A DNA stretch of 64,000 nucleotides from Hoplostethus atlanticus (lineage: Eukaryota; Chordata; Actinopteri; Trachichthyiformes; Trachichthyidae). The stretch spans positions 1,116,001-1,180,000 of the forward strand of contig JAXDDX010000043.1 in the NCBI GenBank assembly GCA_034670405.1, written 5' to 3'. This document shows, one piece after another, positions 43,301-49,300 of this stretch (the first letter of the stretch is position 1; every line of letters starts with the position of its first letter). The position numbers were made by a program, and so were the translations under genes. The notes beneath the pieces were generated by a model. That model was not told the origin of the DNA. It did no database searches and saw only the letters and a program-made list of their open reading frames with translations.

Positions 43301-46300
43301 AACGAGGGAGGAAAGGAAGAATGGATATTTTAGCCTCATCTCAAGACAGGAGTGTTGGAAGTACTGGGCTAACATAATCACATAATTTACAAAAAATAAA
43401 ATATTGTAAGATGAAGAGTGGATTTGTACAAGGGTTCTCAGATGATCACCTCTGAGAAGATTTAACATTACAATTGCATTAGTTTTCAACAAGAGCAGCA
43501 CTTTTCTTTGTGGGAAACATTCTGTCCCAGGTCTGAAGAATCAGTGTAGAATAACTCAAATTCTTATTTCACCAACATTAATAGTAAGGAGCATGAGGGT
43601 GAAACCCACAGCACCCTGACAATAGATATAACAAACATTCCTGTATCTGTAGATTGATCATGAATGATAGAGAAGTGATATATTTAAGGAAATAAGAACG
43701 AGGGAGGAAAGGTAGAATGGATATTTTTGCCTCATCTCAAGACAGGAGTGTTGTTTTCAGTGCAAGTAGAGGAGGAAGACATGGGAGAAGGGGTGTGTGA
43801 TTCAAGTAAGTGAGGGAAGAGACATATGTGTACTTTGTGCCTCTCTCTCCATAATTGTGATGCTACCTTGCAGGTCAGTGATGATGATTTTGTTGTCATA
43901 GGAGCCGGTCAAGAGGTAATGGGCCCCGGGTGAAAAGCGCACTGAGCGAATGTCGCTGCCGTGGGGGCGATACGTCTGCACCATGCGTCCTCCTCTGATA
44001 TCGTACAGCATGCACGTACTGTCCTCCTGACCTGTGGCCAGCAGGCGCCCACTGGGATCCACTGCCACCGAGGCTACAGCACTTCCTGGGTGAAGCAGAA
44101 TGGGAATAAGAAATGTTTACTGTGACTGGTTGCCACTTAGAATGTGCTGCCTGATATTTGGTCTCTGTTTCTACGAACGATTTTTGAGATAAACTCAGGA
44201 GTAAAAGAACCACCAACTAATTCATTCCCGCTTAATTATCAAGTAAAATGATGTTTGTCTATGGTTAATGTGGTTATGGTTTGGTGACTGGTTATTTATT
44301 TTTCGTGCTTTATTTATTTCCGTCACAGGACCATAATATTTGAATTTAATTTTCAATGTTTGATGGTCATGTCTAACCCCATGTATATAAAACACAACAT
44401 TAAGACCAGCCTCAAGTCTGTAATTTAGACTGCAGCAGTTTGAGAAATCTCCAAGAAGCATTAGTGCCCTCTACTGGGCAAACTGTTACTATCACACAAA
44501 CCTATTGGTAGTTACACAAGTAATTTACAGGCAGGGAGAGGCTGAGCTCCAAATGTATTTGCTCTGCATGTGCCCTCAAATTTCACTTTAGTAATTGTGT
44601 GTAGAGTCAAGATCAAGTGGAGCCATCTGGACGGGAAAGTTTTAGAATTCAACAGGACCTCTGAACGATGGCTGGTCACATGCCGAAGTGGCTGATGGAG
44701 GAGACAATCAAAATCAAACTTTACCAGCATTTGACTAGTGGTTAAGACTCATGTAGTGACTGACCTGAGCCGTGCAAGGTAGTGCCCACCACCCGAACAC
44801 AGCTGGGCACCCGTAGGTCCCAGAATCGGACCGTCTTGTCCTGAGAGCCGGAGGAGATCATCCAACCTCCCCATGTGTACAGAGACAGAATGTGACCTGT
44901 TAAAACAAAATGGTAAGAAATAAAATCCAAGTTTAAAAATTTGTGAATCCTTCATCTAAGTCATAACAATAGATAAACACTGGAAGGGCTGGTGTGGGCA
45001 TACCGGTGTGGCCACTGAGGGCATGGAGGCCCTGTCCTCTCTGACAGTTGGTGGTGTAGATGTTGCAGTCTCCCGCCCCGGCACTGATCAAGATGGAGCC
45101 TCCACTCTCGGGGCCCTCCATAAAGGCCAGGTCCCTGATGGTGCCATCATGCATGCTGAACTCCAGGTCTGGGCCTGAATAGTATTTGCATGAAGTACAT
45201 GAAAAGCACACATGTGCATACATTATAACATCAGGTGTGATTATTAATGGACTCTCAATACACTAATGCAAATAGAAACATAAGAAAATACACATCACAT
45301 ATCACACACACACACACACACACATGTCGCAACATCAGCAGGGATCATTCTTGGACTCGCAACACACCCAAGTGTAAATGAAATGGGAAGAAAACGCATT
45401 ACATGTCTCATACACACGCCCACATCAGAGTGATTATTGTGATCATCAGTGATCACAAGAAGAAAAATCACAGATGTATACACATCACATCAGCAATGAT
45501 CATTCATAGGCCTTCTGTACACACAGACACAAATTGAAAAGTGAGATAATGCACATCACATGTCACATACCCACTCACATACACAGAAATAGTACCTGTG
45601 GCATTGCAGGTGTCTGCATTGAAAGGCAGGACTTTGACGTATTTGTCATTGGAGCCAGTAGCCAGCAGTTGTCCACAGTGGCTCCAGGCTACACAGTAGA
45701 TTGAGCCCTTGTGGTGTTTGTTCCTCCTGAAGCGTACCACCGGCTGCTTGACTGCACCAGAACCACTAGACAAGCCAACAAAGACATGTTTTTTTACTAT
45801 ATATTTTTACTATATTATATTACTATTAAAGAAAACAAAAAAATAAACCTCTAAGACAAAATTTAAGACTTTTGCACAGTACTATATACAGTATATATCA
45901 CTTGTTCTTTGGTCTTGATGGACAATGCCTCAAGGTCTATGATTATTTGCCTTTTGACTTACTACCTGAAAACTATTATATCGGTTTTGTCTTTATTAAA
46001 GGACAATTCCGGGATTTTTAAACCTGGCCTCTATATCCACAAAATCGCCTATTATACCGCAAAATAGGTCCAAAAAGTTTCGGAATTGCTCCAGTAGATC
46101 GGCTCAGTCGGCAGTCGCGAAACGGGCTCAATGGCTGCAACGTAATCTGACGGGGCATAGCCGTGCGGTCAAAGTACGTCCACTAAAAGTGCTTGATTTT
46201 GCCACAGATTGTTATTCGTGTGTCTGACAAGTGTCTGACAACATTACTGAAAGGATCGCTACAGAAATAGACCTTTTTTAACCAGAAAACTAAAGTCTAG

Positions 46301-49300
46301 CTCAAGGAGAAGTCCCGCTCTGAAATGGACGGTGGACAAAGGTAGTCTATAGCGAGAGGGTTCACTTGTTGCAGGAGGACGGTAGAAACCTGACAAAGGT
46401 ATTCTATGAAAGCTGCGCAAAGTCTTCCTCAACATTTTGTTGGCACAGTTCGGAAATGTGCAAAAACGAACCATTGTTGTTGTTTTTTATCTTTGGGAAA
46501 AACAAATACTCTAAACTACGCTTTCTATACTCCAACACGCGTCTCCAACGCTGATTTATGTTTACACCATCCTCTTCTTGCAACAAGTCAACCGTCTTGC
46601 TTTCATAGACCACCTTTGTCACATTTCCAACAACTCTGAACTCTGACAAAGGTGGTCTATGAAAGCAAGAGGGTTGACTTGTTGCAAGAAGAGGATGGTG
46701 TAAACATAAATCAGCGTTGGAGACGCGTGTTGGAGTATAGAAAGCATAGTTTAGAGTATTTGTTTTTCCCAAAGATAAAAAACAACAACAATGGTTCGTT
46801 TTTGCACATTTCCGAACTGTGCCAACAAAATGTTGAGGAAGACTTTGCGCAGCTTTCATAGAATACCTTTGTCAGGTTTCTACCGTCCTCTTCCTGCAAC
46901 AAGTGAACCCTCTCGCTATAGACTACCTTTGTCCACCGTCCATTTCAGAGCGGGACTTCTCCTTGAGCTAGACTTTAGTTTTCTGGTTAAAAAAGGTCTA
47001 TTTCTGTAGCGATCCTTTCAGTAATGTTGTCAGGCACTTGTCAGACACACGAATAACAATCTGAGCCTGTCAGTGGCAAAATCAAGCACTTTTAGTGGAC
47101 GTACTTTGACCGCACGGCTATGCCCCGTCAGATTACGTTGCAGCCATTGAGCCCGTTTCGCGACTGCCGACTGAGCCGATCTACCGGAGCAATTCCGAAA
47201 CTTTTTGGACCTATTTTGCGGTATAATAGGCAATTTTGTGGATATAGAGGCCAGGTTTAAAAATCCCGGAATTGTCCTTTAAGCTGCAGAAAGTTGTGAC
47301 ACATCCAATTTGTATACTCAATACACTGAACCAGTGAGTACAAAGAACCAAGCTCATCAGTGGAAAGTGATACGTAATTTTAATTTTAATTTTTTTTGAT
47401 AGGTAAATATGTGTATCGTCTGTGTAATTATGGTACTGTACATTGTTATTCTGTATGATACGTCCAAGTGGGAACATGTAAAGATTGAAGAGCAGAGGAC
47501 CAAGAATTGAACCCTGCGGAACCCAATACGGGACAGTGACTTTGTCAGAGACAAAGTTATCAATAGAGACAACATAGTGTCTGTCCAACAGATAGGATCT
47601 TAACTAGTTAAGGACCGGGTCAGACAATCCTATCCATTTTTCTAGTCTTCTTAACAGTATAATGTGATCAGTGTCAAATGCAGCGCTGAGATCAAGCAGT
47701 ACCAGAATAGATAGTTTGTGTCTGTGCTCACAACTTTAAAAAGAGACGTTTATGTACTATAATGTGGTCTGAATCCTGATTGATGATCAATCTTAATCAA
47801 CAGAAAATCCAAGGAAAAGGACGTCACATTACTGACCACACTGTTTGATTGACAGACGATCTCTGGGAAGTGCAGTGCAGAAACACCACTGCAATGAGCG
47901 CTAAGCACTAAAGATGGAGACTAAATAAAAGTGAGAATCTTGCAGATTACCACTTTAAATTACCTTCTATCATAATCTGCTATCAATCATTTTGCAGATC
48001 AATCAGGCTTGATATCTTGGGTGTGGTGTTGGGTGTGTGTTTGAGACTCCTACCTGGTGGTTAGTGTCTCTGGATAAGCACAGACTCTCAGGGTTTTGGA
48101 ATTGGAGCCCACAGCATAGAGCGCCCCCAAGGGGTGGAAGGCCACAGCACGCACTGCCTGTGTGTCCTCCAGTTGGTTCACTTTAACAAACTGGGTTTTG
48201 GACTTCCCTAACTGCATACAGAAAGATTGGTGAAAAATATTCATTATAATTATGAACTGTCTAGGCTGTATACTTACCATAACATAGTTTCTACACAAAT
48301 AGTTGATTTTTAGTTTAGAGTTGGGCCAAATAGCATGTAGCATTTGTTTTAACCTGCTTGGAGACTCAGATGGGTGGGGGTTTACTACATCAGAACCAAC
48401 AACCTTGGAACCCCAAGCAGGTAAAAACAAATGCTCAGAATTATTTGGAATACTATTTTACCAAGGTCTGTATGGGATCTTTATCTGTTGGGAACTTTAC
48501 AGTACCTCTTGTGTTGTGTTACGCGTCGCAGAGCTGGCAGAGTCATCCTGGACTGTAGGAAAAGAGTCCCTGGTCTGCTCAGCACTGGGAATCAAAACAC
48601 ACACACAAAGCTCCCATTTCTAATGGATGACTGGTCATTCAAGTCATTCATACAGCCAAGTTTTACTTTCATGCCAGGAACTTTTGTCAAGACTTATTTT
48701 GCAATCAAACTTACAGTATATATATTCCCTGTTGGCTAGATGAACAGATACTTGCCAGGCTCTTACCTATGGGTAGCAGGAATGTGGGACTCATTGATAC
48801 AGGGCGTGCCATGGCTCCCGGGCCTTAGAGGGGTGCTACTGCTTCCCCCACCGGGCTTGTCCCTCGGGGGCCCGGGCTCCGGGGTGTGGCTGGTGCTGGG
48901 GGTCCTGGAGGTGCTGGGATCCCCTGCCACTCCTCCGTTCCACTGCTGGCCCAGACATGGCATCACCTCAATGCCCACATTCATCTCCTCCAACTTCTGT
49001 ATGGACCTAGACAGCAAAAACAAGATCTCAGTGTCTCAATGAGGTTGCACTGAGGTTGTATTAATGTTGGCATATTTATGTTGGTCATCTAAGAATTTAA
49101 TGTAATTCTACAGTTGCACGCATTGTGTGTCACTCTGGATAAGAGCATCTGCTAAATGTAAATGCTGTAGTATCAAATAGCCAGACCTTCCTCTTCACTT
49201 TTTTCACTTTGTTTTAGTGCTGTGACAGTACAGGAGAACGGATAGTAACCTTACTATCCAGTTGTCGAGCAGATAAGTAGTTAATGCAGAAAAAGAATTC

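Follow-up and report, generated by a model that had tools for sequence, protein, structure and literature searches.

A near-perfect inverted repeat of 1279 bp lies between exons of wdr47 in a 64,000-nucleotide stretch of DNA from Hoplostethus atlanticus (assembly GCA_034670405.1, contig JAXDDX010000043.1, positions 1,116,001 to 1,180,000). This whole stretch is called the window, and its own numbering is used throughout. The locus raises the question of what kind of element occupies positions 46000 to 47278, how it came to have two arms, and in what form it spread. The evidence presented here indicates that the element is very probably a non-autonomous foldback transposon of the Kolobok type, which spread as a palindrome and gave rise to shorter copies by internal deletion.

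Structure and genomic distribution of the palindrome

The arms of the window element differ by 5 substitutions over 618 aligned positions, plus gaps of 10 and 3 nt. Together they account for ~1257 of the 1279 nt; inverted repeats thus form nearly the whole element, as in foldback transposons. Its outer ends, AGGACAATTCCGGGA, are present in both orientations directly inside TTAA. An earlier interpretation made from the letters of this DNA (the sequence-only reading) had described a palindrome with near-identical arms, TTAA flanks, and identical outer ends at this position, all of which was confirmed; the centre, which it had put at 24 nt, is ~22 nt long. An inverted repeat of such length and quality is no chance event. 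Folding of the whole element as RNA gave a single hairpin (−1206.7 kcal/mol, a value without a shuffle control at such length). Within each arm there is also a smaller inverted repeat, absent from the sequence-only reading, the two sides of which are 83 to 86% identical.

One arm was used as the query against the H. atlanticus genome (632.8 Mb; 1161 contigs). Forty of 1704 first-look candidates were scored, and the best arm at each of these places matched the window arm at 94 to 100%. The 24-nt end pattern, including TTAA, had 336 exact matches in the genome and none in a backward-read control, so the search for other copies that the sequence-only reading had proposed uncovered a family. Sixty-two family places, chosen by best arm match, end pairs, or frame and therefore not a random sample, were read. 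Mechanical pairing of ends gave 49 pairs, one of which (L015) was false and was dropped, leaving 48 complete copies. TTAA was present on both sides in 47 of the 48 (L065 has TTTA on one side), and the arms are thus not confined to one locus without TTAA-flanked relatives. Like the window copy at both ends, all 48 have AG...CT termini, and the family ends read 5'-AGGA(C/G)AATTCCGGGA. At L025, the pairing had caught the end of an older neighbour; the copy's own left end has TTAA, and it was counted at 1344 nt. This copy (L025, 2961 to 4690) lies inside an older related element with a AGGGTAATTCCGGTA end.

Complete copies are 294 to 1915 nt long, 16 of the 48 being palindromes of 1.26 to 1.35 kb. 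Two long arms were found at 22 of the 62 places read. Inverted arms were present in 20 of 20 copies fetched as end pairs, which had been chosen with a pattern that already included TTAA. The mean divergence from the majority sequence was 2.3% (82 arms), suggesting that the family is fairly young, although no date is claimed. Flanks were fused at a single TTAA for 54 sites, and in four cases the fused sequence aligned across its junction with a dispersed paralogous repeat that has no interruption there (75 to 79%), as precise insertion predicts.

Palindromes are known to cause assembly errors, and an inverted duplication can be introduced by an assembler or by chimeric reads. Such an artefact has next to no probability here, given that two long arms occur in 22 copies at separate places, that the arms differ by 0.7 to 4.6% in the 12 copies measured singly, unlike an artefactual mirror copy, that complete copies are bounded by TTAA, and that one palindrome was recovered on two contigs (L072 and L073, on C490 and C186, probably two haplotypes).

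Kolobok-type ends and the search for a parent

Kolobok elements combine TTAA with 5'-RR...YY-3' ends, in contrast to piggyBac (PMC9587614). The article PMC6004289 lists Kolobok ends such as AGGACATGTC, includes AGGACATGTCAACCCC and AGGACAAGGAAAGCTT among those of Xenopus, and describes Kolobok transposases as carrying THAP. A 4-bp TTAA target-site duplication flanks the window copy and the 47 complete copies noted above, and the AG...CT termini conform to 5'-RR...YY-3'. Assignment to piggyBac, another superfamily that duplicates TTAA, would also account for the flanks; it is nevertheless very unlikely, as the ends follow the purine/pyrimidine pattern of Kolobok (PMC9587614) and the arms hold a THAP-like start, a domain belonging to Kolobok transposases (PMC6004289). 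A P-superfamily foldback that recruited THAP sequence into its inverted repeats would resemble Drosophila Galileo, whose long terminal repeats recruit transposase pieces (PMC4168063). The target site disfavours this reading, which we consider extremely improbable: the P superfamily duplicates 7 to 8 bp (reported as 7 bp for Galileo and 8 bp for P), whereas the flanks here are TTAA.

Within Kolobok, the T2 miniature inverted-repeat transposable elements (T2-MITEs) have AGGRR beside TTAA. G-type copies of the present family agree with this motif (AGGAG), while AGGAC is found in the C-type copies, the window copy among them; the window element was not filed as a T2-MITE.

Also present in the genome are transposases that combine THAP with a DGRCDSPG...DPWHVAKG region and that we take to be Kolobok. 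In Pfam, their THAP part was clear, and the catalytic part matched below threshold only. One family of these presumed Kolobok transposases starts at TTAA-AAGGAACCC (two copies compared), with ends unlike those of the palindromic family; for a second, TTAA-AGGGCCCATATTATGG represents a nearby motif match only. The sequence-only reading had anticipated a full-length element with the same ends and a transposase, and no such element was found in the host genome. Searching that genome with the Pfam THAP model gave 149 matches (best 150 of 337 candidates), none of which was seen, by eye, at the family's MVRF frames. With the first 29 residues of the frame as the query, the best 150 of 358 candidates were all 93 to 100% identical, and other relatives may have been crowded out.

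Two further sets of candidate parents were rejected. An exon-end pattern lacking the family's following letters matched 11 places, compared with 4 in the control, and none was taken as a parent: six begin ATAGACTACCTTTGTC like the outer repeat of the family, one lies ~0.6 kb from a family end, and four have a core mismatch. Ends sharing the first 11 nt of the family, with other letters inside, occurred at 22 places (control, 0); 8 read exactly AGGASAATTCCACCCTCAG, most others nearly so, and one is L016. Eight of the 22 ends that share these 11 nt and continue differently read TTAAAGGASAATTCCACCCTCAG exactly.

The TTAA-flanked, non-autonomous foldback of Kolobok type that had been proposed for this locus is thus supported by many genomic relatives and by the four paralogous empty sites. 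Several observations weigh against it. None of the four empty sites has TTAA letter for letter, and AGGAC at the end of the window element departs from the strict AGGRR of T2-MITEs. The transposases are called Kolobok for their THAP and TTAA-AGG ends, their catalytic Pfam matches being sub-threshold. Finally, no autonomous element with the ends of the palindromic family, which as a Kolobok parent would encode a DDE transposase with H2CH, was found in the genome, nor any with AGGASAATTCCGGGA ends.

Composition of the arm and spread of the palindrome

Each window arm contains a THAP-like frame (minus strand, 46259 to 46474; plus strand, 46791 to 47009), and both read outward, in agreement with the sequence-only reading. 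That reading had identified a THAP-domain start in both arms; a THAP-like start is indeed present, although it amounts to half a domain and gave no Pfam match at E 0.1. Only the N-terminal half is there, and the tryptophan and second zinc pair are absent. The first 29 residues scored 12.6 bits against a profile built from five THAP sequences of the same genome. Of 2000 shuffles made, 1929 were reported; the best scored 10.0, and none reached 12.6. Across 82 arms, the frame had 47 non-synonymous and 11 synonymous changes relative to the majority sequence, a ratio of 1.35 after correction for sites and exclusion of CpG sites. One change is a stop, and the frame was open from the ATG in 56 of the 71 arms with enough letters. 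The notion of a conserved gene was rejected on this ratio, and the frame is, by its pattern of changes, evidently a passenger without purifying selection.

The outer part of the arm (arm positions 6 to 292) shares 81% identity with one end of a related element at L024 that terminates in AGGGGAATTCCGGTA; for a sister group with AGGGKAATTCCGGTA, 758 exact ends were counted in the genome (control, 0). The THAP-like start sits in the inner part and reads towards the adjacent terminus. Because a transposase gene reads away from its upstream terminus, the terminus retained in the arm is a different one. The arm is therefore not simply a transposon 5' end with its end, promoter region, and first exon, as in the inverted duplication previously proposed. 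Instead, it resembles a transposon terminus fused to the start of a transposase gene that has otherwise been deleted. The simplest history would be an internally deleted transposon that kept the gene head and the 3' terminus and later underwent inverted duplication; a local inversion is the alternative.

The centre of the palindrome bears on how the family spread. In six two-armed copies (L008, L025 to L028, and L056), 17 to 87 nt separate the BLAST-aligned arms. Asymmetric sequence containing AAATCTCGCGAGA, found in either direction, is present in the longer spacers, and most of the common spacer has been lost from the window copy and L026. Three copies (L020, L022, and L023) have second ends of 31 to 80 nt, yet each retains the spacer and a piece of the far arm, followed by other sequence or the end, which indicates deletion from a full palindrome. 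On these remains, the idea that all short-armed copies represent an ancestral one-armed state was rejected. We conclude that the palindrome appears to be the form that spread and that the short copies arose at least partly by internal deletion. Nothing suggests that the palindrome originated at the window locus.

A different course of events, in which inverted duplication of a one-armed element produced each palindrome independently and no palindromic form was itself dispersed, would fit the likeness of the arms within a copy and the variable length of second arms, which runs from 37 nt to full and falls below BLAST detection in L016 and L017. In its favour, too, L016, L041, L050, and L053 lack far-arm remains; these four copies count against spread as a palindrome in that they are silent on deletion versus another origin. 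However, the centre is common to different copies, and the three copies with short second arms keep the common spacer along with far-arm pieces, making repeated formation unlikely.

At 20 deletion junctions, BLAST overlaps ranged from 0 to 11 nt, and 9 of the 20 had none or 1 nt of microhomology. Other copies are altered in their own ways. At L013 (about 2992 to 3711) and L016 (3096 to 3819), the second end is cut to ~9 and ~15 nt beside TTAA, which bears on how little of a terminus survives deletion. One arm of L021 (397 to 3709) is interrupted at arm position ~346 to 354 (9-nt overlap) by ~2.06 kb that holds, by eye, a reverse transcriptase fragment of a long interspersed nuclear element (LINE). 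At L022 (565 to 3660), a left arm cut to 31 nt is followed by ~2.3 kb of other DNA and then by the spacer and the full right arm; the intervening DNA, an insertion or a capture, has a 289-residue frame rich in REPGP repeats.

The two arms of a copy resemble each other in ways that suggest exchange. Base 5 was identical in both arms of 22 of 22 two-armed copies (13 C/C and 9 G/G), and the C and G subfamilies are separated by only three other sites. Rare variants (present in at most 10% of other arms) were common to both arms of one copy in 45 instances, compared with a mean of 8.2 and a maximum of 18 in 200 shuffles that re-paired arms within a subfamily; the background of this comparison held two duplicate rows (L022 and L023), which were removed for the frame and clustering counts. 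At rarity thresholds of 3, 5, 10, and 20%, the counts were 19, 24, 46, and 78 (without shuffles). Shared variants were clustered along the arm, with 52 switches between shared and different compared with 69.4 expected, and none of 500 shuffles was as low. Arm identity was 97.2% within a copy and 96.1% between copies of one subfamily. On the other side, 6 of the 22 two-armed copies share no rare variant, in only 5 of 12 was the likeness between the two arms closer than that in at least 97 of 102 comparisons with other arms, no excess likeness within the copy was seen for L027 and L060, and several founder palindromes could partly explain the shared variants. Exchange between the arms of one copy is likely, if uneven.

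A history consistent with these results can be proposed. A founding arm would have formed when internal deletion and rearrangement brought a transposon terminus together with the first exon of a THAP transposase and the region upstream of that exon. A single inverted duplication of this arm, or one in each of the C and G subfamilies, would have followed, and the resulting palindrome would be moved by a Kolobok-type transposase acting in trans. Later, the arms may have been copied onto each other repeatedly, most plausibly as a strand folded back on itself or as the other arm served as template in repairing an excision gap.

The spacer raises the separate matter of function. AAATCTCGCGAGA was found inside the element at 22 of the 62 places read, in the spacer where it was located, and AAATCTCG is the reported optimal sequence for BANP (PMC10206803). 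Since the frames point away from the spacer motif and the window element folds into one hairpin, the palindrome could act as a two-way promoter making a THAP-derived peptide or hairpin RNA. The window copy is without the motif, the frame is without purifying selection, and the peptide is without the second half of the THAP zinc site, so such a function has little to recommend it. A broader conception, in which self-templating mobile palindromes keep their arms alike by mutual copying and an intact, CpG-rich BANP-site hinge acts as a promoter in both directions, for head-to-head THAP first exons and for long hairpin RNA, is somewhat less remote but still doubtful.

Setting of the window copy and comparison with known systems

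The features of the window element and its neighbours are collected in Table 1. The placement in wdr47 given by the sequence-only reading is upheld by WD40 and WDR47 matches in the flanking gene, which as a whole includes the WDR47 cross-over region, WD40 repeats, and a 57-residue match to solved WDR47. The neighbouring wdr47 features are open frames, and their positions are frame borders, not exon borders. For wdr47, the element is an intronic insertion able to form an RNA duplex of ~620 bp, a candidate for RNA editing. Elsewhere in the window, two near-identical terminal stretches flank long gag/pol-like frames at 17845 to 24677, by eye a Ty3/gypsy-type retrotransposon, and frames at 29982 to 31041 are similar, also by eye, to a Harbinger-type DDE transposase.

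Table 1. Window coordinates of the palindromic element, its parts, and the adjacent wdr47 frames
Feature	Position	Strand	Remarks
Palindromic (foldback) non-autonomous DNA transposon, very probable assignment	46000..47278		1279 bp
TTAA target site, left copy	45996..45999		
TTAA target site, right copy	47279..47282		
Left arm	46000..46621	+	~622 nt
Right arm	46644..47278	-	~635 nt; 99.2% identical to left arm over 618 aligned positions
Centre	46622..46643		~22 nt; longer TCTCGCGAGA spacer of other copies mostly absent
THAP-like frame, first 29 codons, left arm	46388..46474	-	outward
THAP-like frame, first 29 codons, right arm	46791..46877	+	outward
Smaller inverted repeat in left arm, one side	46351..46413		partner 46573-46627; mirror pair in right arm
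Open frame with next wdr47 WD40 exon, downstream of element	45504..45806	-	WD40 above Pfam cut-off
Open frame with wdr47 exon, upstream of element	48050..48457	-	WD40-type match below Pfam cut-off

Long palindromes are usually unstable and short-lived. The family provides many natural palindrome replicates in one vertebrate genome, with graded deletions in the rest of its copies, and these replicates let one ask how palindromes arise, homogenise, and vanish in a germ line.

Several known systems share part of this architecture. The PALTTAA elements of Caenorhabditis are TTAA-flanked palindromes and are not known to contain THAP sequence. One such family, PALTTAA2, has been named and grouped with piggyBac (PMC1431705). 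The Xenopus Kolobok T2-MITEs have TTAA, AG- and often AGG-type ends, a THAP transposase, and many non-autonomous copies in common with the present family (PMC6004289). They differ in the strict AGGRR motif, which AGGAG copies share and the window AGGAC does not, and in the present family the complete copies are palindromic, each arm carrying a transposase head; the word "palindromic" is absent from PMC6004289. Galileo likewise has long inverted repeats of very variable length that have both recruited transposase pieces (PMC4168063), but its target duplications are 7 bp, its transposase is of P type, and the end of the gene was recruited, in contrast to the gene start found here.

KolobokP of molluscs and other animals is of Kolobok type with unusual terminal architecture (PMC9587614); it has long direct terminal repeats and a homing-type nuclease and no palindrome. 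Tetris of Drosophila virilis is a non-autonomous foldback with the same ends as a MITE, but it has internal tandem repeats and is a different type of element (PMC4079207). No palindromic family of Kolobok type carrying THAP sequence in its two arms was found in the literature searched, although the present family may already be catalogued in Repbase or Dfam. In kind, the window element is known; what makes it a variant worth a specialist note is that the palindrome is complete, with each arm bearing a transposase head, and that there is evidence of copying between arms.

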